This document shows positions 27,132 through 38,550 of a DNA stretch of 41,478 nt, in pieces. The stretch spans positions 1 to 41,478 of the forward strand of contig CADAZW010000004.1 in the NCBI GenBank assembly GCA_902792555.1. The letters are read 5' to 3'. The notes beneath the pieces were generated by a model, which did not search any database, was not told where the DNA came from, and saw nothing but the letters and a program-made list of their open reading frames with translations. Position numbers and translations under genes: made by a program. Source of the DNA: an uncultured Bacteroidales bacterium. GTDB lineage: Bacteria; Bacteroidota; Bacteroidia; Bacteroidales; Bacteroidaceae. The number at the start of each line of letters is the position of its first letter. Position 1 is the first letter of the stretch.

Positions 27132-28397
27132 ATGGAACTAAAGAGAGTAGTCGTAACAGGCGTGGGTGCCATCACCCCCCTGGGCCACAATGTAGCCGAC
27201 ACATGGGCCGCCATACTGGCTGGCAAGAGCGGCGCAGCCCCCATCACCCACTTCAACACTGAGAAGTTTAAGACCCACTTCGCTTGTGAGGTAAAAGACT
27301 TCGACCCCAAGCAGTATATCGACCGCAAGGAGGCCAACAAGATGGACCTCTACACACAGTATGCCATGGTGGCCGCCACCGAGGCTGTTGAGGACACCGG
27401 CCTCAACATTGAGCAGGCCGACAAGAACCGCATCGGCGTAGTGCTGGGCGTAGGCATCGGCGGCATCAACAGCTTTGAGAAGGAAGTGAGCGACTATGCA
27501 CGCACCGGCGAGGAGCTCGGCCCGCGCTACAGCCCCTACTTCATACCCAAGATGATTGCCGACATCGCTGCCGGCTACGTCTCCATGAAGTACGGCTTCC
27601 ACGGCCCCAACTTCGTCACCACCTCCGCCTGTGCCTCCTCCACCCACGCCATAGCCACAGCCGTTGACCTCATCCGCCTGGGCAAGGCCGATGCCATCGT
27701 CAGCGGCGGAGCAGAGGCTGCTATCTGGCCCACCGGCCTCGGCGGCTTCAACGCCATGCATGCCCTCTCCACCCGCAACGACGATCCCGAAGGAGCTAGC
27801 CGCCCCTTCAGCGCCAGCCGCGACGGATTCGTCATGGCAGAAGGCTCAGCATGCCTCTTCCTCGAGGAGCTCGAGCATGCCAAGGCACGCGGTGCTAAGA
27901 TCTACGGTGAGATAGCAGGCTCCGGCATGAGCGCCGACGCCTACCACATCACCGCCTCCCACCCCGAGGGACTCGGCGCAAAGCTCGTTATGCAGGCAGC
28001 ACTCAAGGACGCCGGCATGCAGCCCGAGGATATTGACTACATCAATGTACATGGCACCTCCACCCATGTGGGAGACATCTCCGAGGTCAAGGCTATCCAG
28101 GAGCTCTTCGGCGACCACGCCTATAAGCTCAACATCAGCTCCACCAAGTCCATGACCGGCCATATGCTCGGTGCAGCCGGTGCAGCAGAGGCTCTCTTCA
28201 GCCTCCTGGCAGTCAAGGAAGACGTTGTGCCACCAACCATCAACCACACCGAAGGCGACGAAGATCCCGAGATTGACTACAAGCTCAACTTCACCTTCAA
28301 CACCGCCCAGCACCGCACCGTTCGCGCCGCCCTGAGCAACACCTTCGGATTCGGCGGCCACAACGCCTGCGTCATAATCAAGAAGTACACTGAATAA
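27132..28397 (+). CDS. fabF: 3-oxoacyl-[acyl-carrier-protein] synthase II
   Basis: Condenses malonyl-ACP with acyl-ACP in fatty acid elongation. 421 residues, thiolase fold. Catalytic triad: C167 in TTSACASSTHAIA, H307 in NVHGTSTHVGD, H344 in SSTKSMTGHMLGAAG, with K339 supporting. The C-terminal SNTFGFGGHNA is the family glycine loop. It lies 112 bp after acpP. Downstream, normally rnc would follow directly; here an insertion separates them. Confidence 0.97.
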   Translation: MELKRVVVTGVGAITPLGHNVADTWAAILAGKSGAAPITHFNTEKFKTHFACEVKDFDPKQYIDRKEANKMDLYTQYAMVAATEAVEDTGLNIEQADKNRIGVVLGVGIGGINSFEKEVSDYARTGEELGPRYSPYFIPKMIADIAAGYVSMKYGFHGPNFVTTSACASSTHAIATAVDLIRLGKADAIVSGGAEAAIWPTGLGGFNAMHALSTRNDDPEGASRPFSASRDGFVMAEGSACLFLEELEHAKARGAKIYGEIAGSGMSADAYHITASHPEGLGAKLVMQAALKDAGMQPEDIDYINVHGTSTHVGDISEVKAIQELFGDHAYKLNISSTKSMTGHMLGAAGAAEALFSLLAVKEDVVPPTINHTEGDEDPEIDYKLNFTFNTAQHRTVRAALSNTFGFGGHNACVIIKKYTE

Positions 28398-28412
28398 TTG
28401 CTTCCTACATAG

Positions 28413-28448
28413 ACTATAGTCACTATAGACACTATAGTTATACTATAG
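28413..28448 (+). repeat. Short actatag repeats between fabF and rnc
   Basis: The heptamer actatag begins at 28413, 28422, 28431 and 28442, giving spacings of 9, 9 and 11 bp. It lies just after the fabF stop and before the old rnc start. Confidence 0.85.
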
Positions 28449-28463
28449 CTACCAACAGAAATT

Positions 28464-28517
28464 ATGTCCAATATTTTCAACCGCATAAAGTTCCTCTTTG
28501 TCAAGAAAAATATATAA
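28464..28517 (+). pseudogene. Displaced original 5' end of rnc
   Basis: A 17-codon frame, MSNIFNRIKFLFVKKNI, ends in a stop created by AT-rich inserted DNA. Its first 15 codons join in frame to rnc residue 19 if 28509-28837 is removed, giving ...FLFVKK-GELFVSLKSMLG, a normal-looking RNase III N-terminus. It is therefore the former start of rnc. Confidence 0.75.
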
Positions 28518-28837
28518 ATTTATATAGTTATAATGATTTGATTGAATTTAAACTGAAATAAATTATGGAATTTACATTTAGAAGCCTTTGGAGTTATGAA
28601 TCTATATGTACAGTTGAAGCTGATTCTTTTGAAGAAGCAAAAAAGAAATTAGATGACCCCGAAATAGAATTTGAAGATAAAGATTATATATTAAAAGAAA
28701 GTTATTGTATGGACGAAAATGAAGAAGAATATGCTTGGAACCCATATGATGATTAATGAGATTATATTAAAAATCAATTAGTTATGATAATTGATTTATA
28801 TAATTACTTTATAAATTTGTTCTCCTTTGTCAAGAAA
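28509..28837 (+). mobile_element. ~330 bp AT-rich insertion into the 5' end of rnc
   Basis: The 13 bp direct repeat ctttgtcaagaaa occurs at 28496-28508 and 28825-28837 and bounds a block whose composition is far more AT-rich than fabF or the body of rnc. The block holds one small ORF (28565-28756) and a new start codon that reopens rnc. No transposase or clear terminal inverted repeats were seen, so the mechanism is unknown. Confidence 0.6.
28565..28756 (+). CDS. Small acidic protein inside the rnc insertion
   Basis: 63 residues, strongly acidic, beginning MEFTFRSLWSYESICTVEA and ending AWNPYDD. The pattern CTVEADSFEEAKKKLDDPEIEF loosely resembles small DpnD/PcfM-like mobile-element proteins, but this is only a resemblance. 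Codons end mostly in A or T, unlike fabF before and rnc after, a sign of recent transfer. It lies fully inside the insertion and ends 27 bp before the new rnc start. Function unknown; an anti-nuclease or regulatory role toward RNase III would be speculation. Confidence 0.65.
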   Translation: MEFTFRSLWSYESICTVEADSFEEAKKKLDDPEIEFEDKDYILKESYCMDENEEEYAWNPYDD

Positions 28838-29629
28838 GGGGAACTTTTTGTTTCTCTTAAGTCAATGTTGGGCTTCGCTCCGCACCACATAGAATTCTAC
28901 GAGCAGGCTATCACCCACCGCTCGGCGGCCATTCGCGACTCGAAGGGGCGGCGCAACAACAACGAGCGCCTCGAATTTCTGGGCGATGCCGTGATAGAGA
29001 CCGTCATCAGCGACATCCTCTACCATCAGTACCCCAAGCGCGACGAAGGATTCCTCAGCACCATGCGCAGCAAGCTCGTTGAGCGTAAAAACCTGGGCCG
29101 CATAGCCAAGGAGATAGGCCTGCTCCCGCTGCTGCGCACCGACTTCAAGGACGGCAGCCGCCCCACTACCCACAACAGCTACCTCGGCGGCAACGCCTTC
29201 GAGGCCCTCGTGGGTGCCATCTATCTCGACCGAGGCTTCCGGGGCAGCTTCCGCTTCATCCGCCGCCTCATGGACCAGGGCTATATCGACATAGCACGCA
29301 CAGCCCGGGTGGAGGAGAACCATAAGAGCGTCCTGCTTGAGTGGGGACAGAAATACAAGGCCGATGTGCGCTTCTTCCTAAAGAGCGAGGACCGTAGCAG
29401 CAGCCGAGGCACCAAGTTCTGCTACGCCGTAATGGTAGAAGGCCGCGAGATAGCCACCGCCACAGGCTATAGCAAGAAAGAATGCCACCAGCTCGCCGCC
29501 AAGCGAGCACTCAGCGCCTTCCGCCGCAACCCCAACTTCGAGCGCTCCATGCTCCAGATGCGCCTCACCCACCGAGTGGTGAAAGATCTCATGCCCTACG
29601 CACAGCCCACCAAAGAAAAGGAGGAATAA
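28784..29629 (+). CDS. rnc: Ribonuclease III with a replaced N-terminus
   Basis: Double-strand-specific endoribonuclease for rRNA and mRNA processing. 281 residues from the ATG at 28784. The catalytic signature is NERLEFLGDAVIE (residues 60-72, with E64 and D68), followed by STMRSKLVERKNLG and GNAFEALVGAIYLDRG (second metal site). The double-stranded-RNA-binding domain is ~195-260 (KSVLLEWGQKYKADV, AKRALSAF). The first 12-14 residues (MIIDLYNYFINLFS) are encoded by inserted DNA but mimic the original (NIFNRIKFLFVKK), with FVKK common to both. The enzyme is probably functional. A basic C-terminal tail is normal for the group. Confidence 0.93.
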   Translation: MIIDLYNYFINLFSFVKKGELFVSLKSMLGFAPHHIEFYEQAITHRSAAIRDSKGRRNNNERLEFLGDAVIETVISDILYHQYPKRDEGFLSTMRSKLVERKNLGRIAKEIGLLPLLRTDFKDGSRPTTHNSYLGGNAFEALVGAIYLDRGFRGSFRFIRRLMDQGYIDIARTARVEENHKSVLLEWGQKYKADVRFFLKSEDRSSSRGTKFCYAVMVEGREIATATGYSKKECHQLAAKRALSAFRRNPNFERSMLQMRLTHRVVKDLMPYAQPTKEKEE

Positions 29630-29665: not shown

Positions 29666-29980
29666 TCGGGAAATGCAGACACCGAATAGGGAAATGTGGA
29701 CTTAGGGAAATTCCTCCGCGAGGAGAGAAGTTTTTTGCGCGAGGAGAGAAGTTTTTATTGAGAGGAAAGAAGATTTTTTTGCGCAAGGAAATCATTTTAT
29801 TGCGCAAAGAATTTTTTTTTATTGCATTGAGATATTTTATTGTTGCGCAGAGATATTTTCTTGTTACGCAGAGAAATTAAATAATCACACGAAGAAAAAA
29901 AATAATCGCGAAGAAGTGGTCTGTTTCGGCGCGATTAGATTTGACTTTGGCGCGATTAGATTTCGTTTCGGCGCGATTAA
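29666..29980. repeat. Degenerate tandem array, ~21 bp period (array C)
   Basis: About 14-15 units. gcgc/cgcg-type cores or their variants recur every 20-23 bp, mostly 21, for example 29717, 29738, 29782, 29803, 29844, 29865, 29907, 29930, 29951 and 29972. Units grade from gaggagagaag-type to gcgcaaag-type to cgcgattagattt-type, so neighbours resemble each other more than distant ones. It fills nearly all of the 423 bp gap between rnc and DUF2851. Confidence 0.85.
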
Positions 29981-30052
29981 ATTTCGGCTTTACAAAAAGA
30001 ATTTTTAGCCGCTCGCTATTGGCAGAAGATGTCAGTGGCAAGCGGCTGATTG

Positions 30053-37581: not shown

Positions 37582-38124
37582 TTACTCAGTAACTTCGTCT
37601 GCTACTTCTTCAACTGTCTCAGTAACTTCCTCTGCAGCATCTTCTGCAGCATCAGTAACCTCATCAGCGGCACCTTCAACTGTCTCTTCTGCTTCGTTGA
37701 ACATGTCACCCATGCCCAAAGCAGCAACCCACTGCTTGCTGAAGTCTTCGTCAGTCTGCAACTCGGTCCAAGCCGGATTCTTCGTTACTTCAGTATTGAA
37801 ATCCTCAATTACTTTCTGAACGGTCTGAACATCATCAGCGGTAAAGCCGGCATCCTGATAAGCCTTGGCAGCATCTTCCATGCTGAACTTCTCATCATTG
37901 AAGAGCTTAGCTACAACCTCAACAGACTTCTGCATAACGGGCTTGATAATCTCAGCCAGTTCCAGAGCCTTTGTCTTAAGTTCTTCCTTAGGCATGGTAG
38001 CCAGCTTATCCTTAACACTTTCAAAAAGTTGCTTAGCCTTTGCACCGGGGCCATCACCACCAGAACAACTTACCATAAACACGCCCATCAGGGCTACTAA
38101 TGCAAATCCTAATAATTTTTTCAT
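37582..38124 (-). CDS. Lipoprotein with acidic C-terminal repeats (paralog A)
   Basis: 180 residues. Lipoprotein signal MKKLLGFALVALMGVFMVSC with the lipobox Cys at 20, followed by SGGDG, an export-type context in Bacteroidetes. The middle is helical (KQLFESVKDKLATMPKEELK). The last ~40 residues are a near-repeat of EEVTETVEEVADEVTE, likely a negatively charged coiled coil. I do not recognise the family. It shares its signal peptide and part of its helical region with the next gene upstream, so the two are tandem paralogs. It is the last gene of a three-gene unit. Confidence 0.8.
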   Translation of the reverse strand: MKKLLGFALVALMGVFMVSCSGGDGPGAKAKQLFESVKDKLATMPKEELKTKALELAEIIKPVMQKSVEVVAKLFNDEKFSMEDAAKAYQDAGFTADDVQTVQKVIEDFNTEVTKNPAWTELQTDEDFSKQWVAALGMGDMFNEAEETVEGAADEVTDAAEDAAEEVTETVEEVADEVTE

Positions 38125-38148: not shown

Positions 38149-38550
38149 TTACATATTAACACCCATTGTCTCTAGCATTTTCTTCTGAAAATCGGGATCT
38201 TTCTCCAGCTCTTTGAAAGCAGGAATCTTATTGCAGGCAGCCTCCATTTCAGACATCAAACCCTCAATTTCTTCTGCACCTGCTTCCTTCATCTCATTAG
38301 CATAATCAAGAGCCTTTGATGGGTCTGCTTCAATCTTCTTGCCTATTTCTGCAACCTTTTCAGTTACAGGCTTGATTGCATTGGCAAAATCCATAAGCTT
38401 AGTCTTAAGTTCGTCAACATTCATGTTGGCTCCCTTATCCTTAAGCTCCTGAACTATTTCTTTTGCCTTTTCGATGCCGCCACCGTTAGAGCAACTAAGC
38501 ATAAACACGCCCATTAAGGCTACTAATGCAAATCCAAGTATTTTTTTCAT
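38149..38550 (-). CDS. Lipoprotein (paralog B)
   Basis: 133 residues. Signal peptide MKKILGFALVALMGVFMLSC, nearly identical to paralog A also at the DNA level; lipobox Cys 20, then SNGGG. The body is helical and charged (KAKEIVQELKDKGANMNVDELK, ADPSKALDYANEMKEAGAEE) and has no known domain I can name. It lacks the acidic tail of paralog A. It lies 18 bp after the zinc-ribbon gene and 24 bp before paralog A, so the three are one operon. Confidence 0.8.
   Translation of the reverse strand: MKKILGFALVALMGVFMLSCSNGGGIEKAKEIVQELKDKGANMNVDELKTKLMDFANAIKPVTEKVAEIGKKIEADPSKALDYANEMKEAGAEEIEGLMSEMEAACNKIPAFKELEKDPDFQKKMLETMGVNM

Follow-up and report, generated by a model that had tools for sequence, protein, structure and literature searches.

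An AT-rich block inserted at the start of rnc in a Bacteroidales genome reopens the gene and restores a shortened form of its hairpin

An AT-rich block within the start of rnc

We analysed a 41,478-nucleotide stretch of DNA (the window, identical to contig C4) from the 2.29-Mb draft genome of an uncultured Bacteroidales bacterium, which comprises 145 contigs and is 80.5% complete. Within the window, the RNase III gene, rnc, is interrupted after codon 15 by an AT-rich block, and its frame is reopened by a start codon that the block itself supplies. The block is an insertion into the start of rnc, and it restores, in shortened form, the hairpin that the native gene start encodes. The features of the locus, including its open reading frames (ORFs), are as follows.

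27132-28397, plus strand: fabF (beta-ketoacyl-acyl carrier protein synthase), a 421-aa ORF, the upstream neighbour of rnc
28464-28517, plus strand: displaced native rnc start, now a 17-codon ORF (MSNIFNRIKFLFVKKNI-stop) resembling the starts of relatives, such as MSNIFQRIRFLFRKKGELF
28490-28508, plus strand: left imperfect direct repeat, GTTCCTCTTTGTCAAGAAA, holding the 5' arm and loop of the native rnc hairpin, which the insertion has orphaned; resembles a left attachment site (attL)
28509-28837, plus strand: inserted AT-rich block, 329 bp, just 3' of fabF
28565-28756, plus strand: 63-codon acidic ORF with a weak DpnD/PcfM-like match under the Pfam cut-off and no convincing relatives
28760-28805, plus strand: second hairpin, AT-rich, 18 bp with a 3-nt bulge, the new rnc ATG in its loop
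28784-29629, plus strand: rnc (RNase III), 281 codons as reopened by the ATG of the block; an in-frame TTG at 28817 is an alternative start
28819-28837, plus strand: right imperfect direct repeat, GTTCTCCTTTGTCAAGAAA, the replacement 5' arm and loop; resembles a right attachment site (attR)
28819-28844, plus strand: rebuilt rnc hairpin, a 10-bp stem GTTCTCCTTT/AAAGGGGAAC with loop GTCAAG

The name fabF and its C-terminal motif are our own assumption. On direct reading, the native ATG at 28464 opens MSNIFNRIKFLFVKK and two more codons before the stop at 28515-28517, while the ATG at 28784 begins the product MIIDLYNYFINLFSFVKK-GELFVSL. The two flanks, joined without the block, give MSNIFNRIKFLFVKKGELFVSLKSMLG in frame, like the uninterrupted rnc starts of relatives. 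Beyond the block rnc looks intact, with the Pfam domains Ribonucleas_3_3, Ribonuclease_3 and dsrm all above cut-off. The original prediction, made from the window alone, had described an AT-rich block whose removal restores a normal rnc start, which carries a 63-residue ORF and a new ATG, and which is bounded by a 13-bp direct repeat. Each of these points was borne out: the GC content of the block is 0.228 against 0.534 for the window, and the repeat, CTTTGTCAAGAAA, is exact at 28496-28508 and 28825-28837 and extends to 17 matches over 19 bases (89%). If a 3-base insertion is allowed, the direct similarity continues past these 19 bases to ATAAA, and the copied stretch is host-like across about 24 bases, with that insertion and two changes. 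The edges of the block are uncertain within 13 bp, since the crossover could lie anywhere in the repeat.

A 13-bp repeat alone is not rare, as the window contains 16 exact 13-mer pairs spaced 100-600 bp apart, in six clusters. Its weight here comes from its position at the composition boundaries, its extension to 17/19 and the empty sites in relatives. The 13-mer is present three times in the host genome, twice at the block; the third copy was rejected as a further insertion, as it sits in a 660-codon ORF with no AT-rich block nearby. An AT-rich stretch from 39337 in the window was also considered and is intergenic DNA.

The empty sites sought in the original prediction, whose lack in all relatives would have refuted it, were found at the fabF-rnc junction. 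In all 18 other genomes available for the genus, fabF adjoins an uninterrupted rnc start without the block, its stop lying 16-91 nt upstream of the matched part of rnc. Together with 100 genomes beyond the genus, these formed a family sample of 118 of the 269 genomes with an rnc match (host excluded), among the matches listed, which leans to nearer relatives; a sample of other families comprised 40 of 102 genomes with such a match. A fabF-like motif and stop were recovered upstream of rnc in 108 of the 118 family genomes (90 of the 100 beyond the genus) and in 38 of the 40 others, and the ten family genomes lacking the motif all came from genus g30. The fabF stop was never more than 241 nt before the rnc match in the 100 family and 40 other-family genomes. 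The gap exceeded 120 nt at nine loci, and in the five inspected base by base the extra DNA precedes the rnc start. Judging from the sequences compared, the block is best explained as AT-rich DNA of foreign origin that was inserted recently.

Separately, six genomes of genus g15 (G191, G165, G230, G253, G126 and G152) had their rnc match, among the matches listed, in unusually long frames of 576-879 codons, which may be fusions or may be open by chance.

A hairpin at the rnc start and its rebuilt copy

The empty site is a 12-6-12 palindrome, AAGTTCCTCTTT-GTCAAG-AAAGGGGAACTT, and in the joined flanks the native stem covers 17 positions with one mismatch. Throughout the genus and much of the family, the start of rnc is likewise a coding palindrome of about 12-20 bp, codon facing codon and often with one mismatch, whose loop is often GCAA, GAAA or GTAA.

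We counted pairing in a protein-guided codon alignment of 80 rows, 73 of them free of indels in the hairpin stretch. The seven rows dropped for indels were two from g30, four genus loci carrying an extra codon and the host's right copy; two further g30 loci and the host's joined flanks were also left out, so that 70 rows were counted. In these, 83.8% of cells were paired, as opposed to 46-58% when the alignment was slid by 1-3 columns. In 1000 permutations of whole 3' halves among all sequences, the real level of pairing was never attained, nor were the 166 cells that had changed on both sides (mean 51.9); the number of pair types was attained by 13. Permutation within genera again gave 0/1000 for pairing and for both-sides-changed cells (means 80.3% and 135.8); the number of pair types was reached by 604 of 1000 and carries no weight there.

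A MAFFT alignment (A1) retains 64 of the 70 sequences, and the removal of six by hand flatters it: these were the near-duplicates L053, L055 and L073 together with L041, L044 and L050, which have no clear hairpin, all six being kept in the permutation counts above. Changes on both sides occur in A1 at 16 of 18 pairs, in 157 cells; shuffling gives a mean of 50.6, with 0 of 500 shuffles reaching 157, and sliding gives at most 45. The count of pair types was reached by four of 500 shuffles. Synonymous recoding formed 10.5 of 18 pairs, compared with 15.1 of 18 observed in the 70 sequences, and for 66 of the 70, at most 5% of 200 synonymously recoded copies paired as well. Some of the changes that keep a pair alter the protein on both sides, for example TCC/GGA for TTC/GAA in L015.

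A stem score of at least 9 was found at the rnc start in 100 of 108 family genomes outside g30, one of ten in g30 and 22 of 40 from other families. Control stretches downstream and upstream reached this score in two and five of the 118 family genomes, and in two and two of the 40 outside. Five of the 22 other-family stems (L140, L142, L148, L152 and L154) are placed elsewhere or are unlike the rest, making 17/40 the fairer count; the strongest again lie within or across the first rnc codons. At E-values up to 0.1, a covariance model (R1) matched 33 of 34 non-training family loci outside g30, which belong to the same genera as the training loci, three of the four extra-codon genus loci, none of ten g30 loci and 11 of 40 other-family loci. 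Many of these palindromic loci match on both strands. A search of Rfam with window positions 27900-29300 and ten relative loci returned no relevant match at E up to 1. As an observation apart, the rnc start of L050 (genome G127, genus g19) is without the usual 5' arm and begins differently, directly after the fabF stop.

In the host, the insertion separates the native 5' arm from its partner, and the block provides another. Its arm GTTCTC pairs at all six positions with the host's GGGAAC, for which the composition of the block gives a chance of about 0.0015; no other among the 311 hexamers of the block can pair fully with the host 3' arm. Among the 18 genus genomes the corresponding word is GTTCCT in 13, GTTCTT in three, and ATTCCT and GTCCTT in one each; the left copy thus carries the commonest genus word, GTTCCT, and GTTCTC occurs in none. 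R1 gave a single match in the window at E up to 10 (28805-28855, 27.2 bits, E 0.0027), and the sole match reported in the host's own genome was the rebuilt hairpin (E 0.15; 150 of 780 first-look candidates scored). A sequence-only model (R2) also matches the orphaned left arm at 28480-28510, over model positions 2-32. Folded alone, the rebuilt hairpin has a z-score of -2.78, with 5 of 200 shuffles as stable. The second hairpin (-11.2 kcal/mol) has a z-score of -3.43, with one of 200 shuffles as stable, and the region 28440-28900 overall is not unusually stable (z -0.92). The original prediction saw in the peptide after the new ATG an imitation of the lost one; this is right but incomplete, as the stretch that was copied doubles as the 5' arm of the conserved RNA hairpin.

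The 63-codon ORF and the origin of the block

The 63-codon ORF is the longest lying entirely inside the block, and no family matched it above cut-off. An ATG-initiated ORF of at least 63 codons occurs in 25 of 2000 dinucleotide shuffles of the block. Residues 16-44 of its product resemble PF14207 (DpnD/PcfM) weakly (E 0.11), at 13.0 bits against a cut-off of 25, so that on this evidence the protein is not a member. Its predicted fold, beta-beta-alpha, has low confidence (mean pLDDT, the predicted local distance difference test score, 55.6), and would presumably suit the DpnD/PcfM family. The poor model and the weak match together suggest that the protein may be mobile-element cargo. IMG/VR, INPHARED phages, PLSDB plasmids, Pfam, PHROGs and NCBIfam yielded no convincing relative of it, the best PHROGs match being phrog_14649 (E 0.0049). 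The DNA of the block gave short AT-rich matches only against phages and plasmids (best E 0.03 and 0.007), and its exact end patterns had 0 and 0 occurrences in viral contigs. No Bacteroides-type promoter, which we take to be TTTG-N17-22-TAnnTTTG, is present in the block; a lone TAnnTTTG lies at 28812-28819, downstream of the new ATG.

We hold, with moderate confidence, that the block is a miniature element, or an internally deleted or eroded integrative one, that integrated, by recombination, in the palindrome encoding the hairpin at the rnc start. A tyrosine-recombinase-type integrase, supplied in trans or by a part of the element now absent, would have acted at the 12-6-12 palindrome; tyrosine recombinases use inverted arms around a short centre. 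When joined to each other, the ends of the element match in inverted orientation around GTCAAG over a run of 9 bases; we noticed this first and tested it afterwards, and placements chosen at random in the block reach such a run in 0.34% of cases. The element itself, rather than target duplication, would have been the source of the repeat's right copy, and the sequences suggest as much: an element-borne copy fits better than a diverged duplication because the left copy is undecayed and the right copy carries two adjacent changes. The 63-codon ORF would then be cargo placed ahead of rnc as in an operon. If RNase III cleaves its own mRNA at this hairpin, leaving the hairpin unrestored would change RNase III levels, and the element would restore the protein N-terminus and the control hairpin together.

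It is the match in architecture with the islands found at dusA that leads us to see in the block a miniature or eroded element of this type. The accessible part of one report describes these islands as having semiconserved 21-bp direct repeats, with the 5' end of the gene derived from the island and the original 5' end displaced (PMC4482086). A second, also available in part, describes a dusA element from which the gene gains another promoter and an N-terminus with 61% identity over 35 residues, and attributes the same to SXT in prfC (PMC8409611). As far as these partial accounts go, dusA elements, which include genomic islands, prophages and integrative mobilizable elements (IMEs), share with the block entry at the 5' end of a conserved gene, imperfect direct repeats, a displaced 5' end and a new start (PMC4482086, PMC8409611). 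Unlike the block, which is 329 bp, has no integrase, lies in rnc and restores a hairpin, they are typically 30-60 kb, carry a dedicated integrase and target dusA. The SXT integrative and conjugative element (ICE) in prfC also differs from the block in being large and conjugative and having an integrase. We know of no RNA hairpin at the SXT site in prfC. What the block has of the dusA/prfC kind is insertion at a 5' end with empty sites, imperfect repeats of about 20 bp and an in-frame new start; an encoded site-specific integrase is the feature it does not have. As a strategy, rebuilding the start of the target is not new in kind: dusA and prfC elements likewise provide a fresh 5' end.

Several results weigh against an integrative element. 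Its main gap as a site-specific event is the missing integrase: no recombinase or integrase was found in the block, and none of the three PF00589 matches in the host genome is a candidate, the proteins appearing by sequence reading to be XerD-like, XerC-like and an IS91-type partner. The mobile parts of genomes are commonly lost from drafts. At 329 bp, the block is far below the size of known islands with such architecture. A search of the host genome (80.5% complete) for a second copy of the block gave one match, the block itself, and the 146 other genomes whose fabF-rnc junction could be read showed no comparable insertion. The 63-aa protein was found in one of 301 family genomes, the host itself; among 393 genomes of the order the next-best match had E 0.0065 (66, host included, match at E up to 10), and 395 genomes of the class gave one further match, at E 0.0024 and inside a 390-codon frame. 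These genome draws overlap, and we took the weak matches as chance, those listed lying mostly within longer frames. Further, the rebuilt stem, at 10 bp, is shorter and weaker than the native one, and RNase III prefers about two helical turns, which is more than it offers. The original prediction of a mobile unit that lands in rnc and rebuilds its start is partly supported: the insertion and the rebuilt start hold, with 18 of 18 empty sites, and mobility would be the tentative part, with no second copy, the protein in 1/301 genomes and no recombinase in the block; the search for the protein and the block ends elsewhere, which it had called for, revealed no other insertion.

Transposition, by a miniature inverted-repeat transposable element (MITE) or the remnant of an insertion sequence (IS), would make the exact 13-bp repeat at the block edges a target-site duplication, and GTTCTC inside the right end either chance or later selected for pairing. 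The block is AT-rich and small, as a MITE would be, and a 51-nt inverted similarity of 71% spans both edges (28484-28534 with 28800-28850). This similarity, however, is made up of the hairpin palindrome, beyond the edges, and a AAATTTATA match some bases inside. There are no inverted repeats at the very ends, where the hexamers AATATA and GAGAAC match at two of six positions. Moreover, 13 bp is, to our understanding, an unusual duplication length, the direct similarity exceeds it, and the genome holds a single copy of the block. On balance we regard transposition as unlikely.

We judge equally unlikely a non-mobile event, in which foreign DNA, for example from a phage, was caught up at the palindrome during break repair or replication slippage and the hairpin's 5' half was duplicated inaccurately. 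Palindromes are, as we understand it, hot spots for breaks and slippage, and both the lack of a convincing relative of the block and the imperfect, host-like copy of about 24 bases speak for such an accident. Yet a whole small ORF, a start codon in frame and an arm that pairs throughout would all have had to arrive in one accident, and the two altered bases stand side by side without disturbing the pairing.

The remaining explanations fare worse. That the block was wrongly joined in assembly or binning is improbable: it is seen in one genome only, and this a draft, but both junctions lie within a single 41-kb contig, the frame is restored, and the shared exact word of 13 bases is presumably under the k-mer lengths usual in assembly. 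That the arrangement is ancient and was lost in relatives is highly improbable, as parsimony over the relatives' genomes speaks against it, the block being absent from 18/18 genus genomes and from every further readable junction. Readings as an integron attC site, a group II intron or an IS200/IS605 element were set aside by reasoning, there being no matching ends, reverse transcriptase or transposase.

Two observations elsewhere in the window concern other sequences. The intergenic DNA 3' of rnc (29680-29990) contains degenerate repeats of the types gcgaggagagaagttttt and gcgcgattagattt. On the minus strand, two adjacent small lipoprotein-like ORFs (37582-38124 and 38149-38550) share a nearly identical start, MKKxLGFALVALMGVFMxSCS, and are likely a local duplication.

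What the rnc hairpin may do

The hairpin is probably a site of RNase III self-regulation, a role we propose because compensatory change keeps it at the rnc start in much of the order. By the parts of the published accounts at hand, RNase III of Staphylococcus aureus cuts its own mRNA within the rnc coding region (PMC3386247), and autoregulation also occurs in Streptomyces coelicolor (absB) and Escherichia coli (PMC3386247, PMC10126417). As far as those accounts extend, the sites in all three are stem-loops in or next to rnc, as in Bacteroidales; the Bacteroidales hairpin, a putative cleavage site, is nonetheless a different one, in another place and phylum. A role of the palindrome at the DNA level is possible, and the G-U pairs among the counted pairs lead us to lean towards RNA. 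The hairpin is absent in g30, where the fabF motif was also not found in the fetched stretch, which hints, from a single genus, that it serves a fabF-rnc transcript.

Among the papers listed in full-text searches of an open-access library, we found no report of an RNase III self-control hairpin in Bacteroides or Bacteroidetes, nor of elements entering rnc. A broader reading, which we offer tentatively as the less likely one, is that the block represents a class of tiny elements that use the self-control hairpin of rnc as their attachment site and carry half a hairpin and a start codon so that the enzyme and its feedback keep working, the hairpin itself being an undescribed regulatory RNA across Bacteroidales.

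If the proposed origin is true, an inserting element would repair its own damage at the levels of both protein and RNA control, in a gene central to RNA processing. The choice of site would also be explained: like tRNA genes, a palindrome that selection maintains as an RNA hairpin would offer a recombinase its site ready-made. Quite apart from the insertion, RNase III self-control in Bacteroidales can be put to a direct test through the covarying hairpin at the rnc start.
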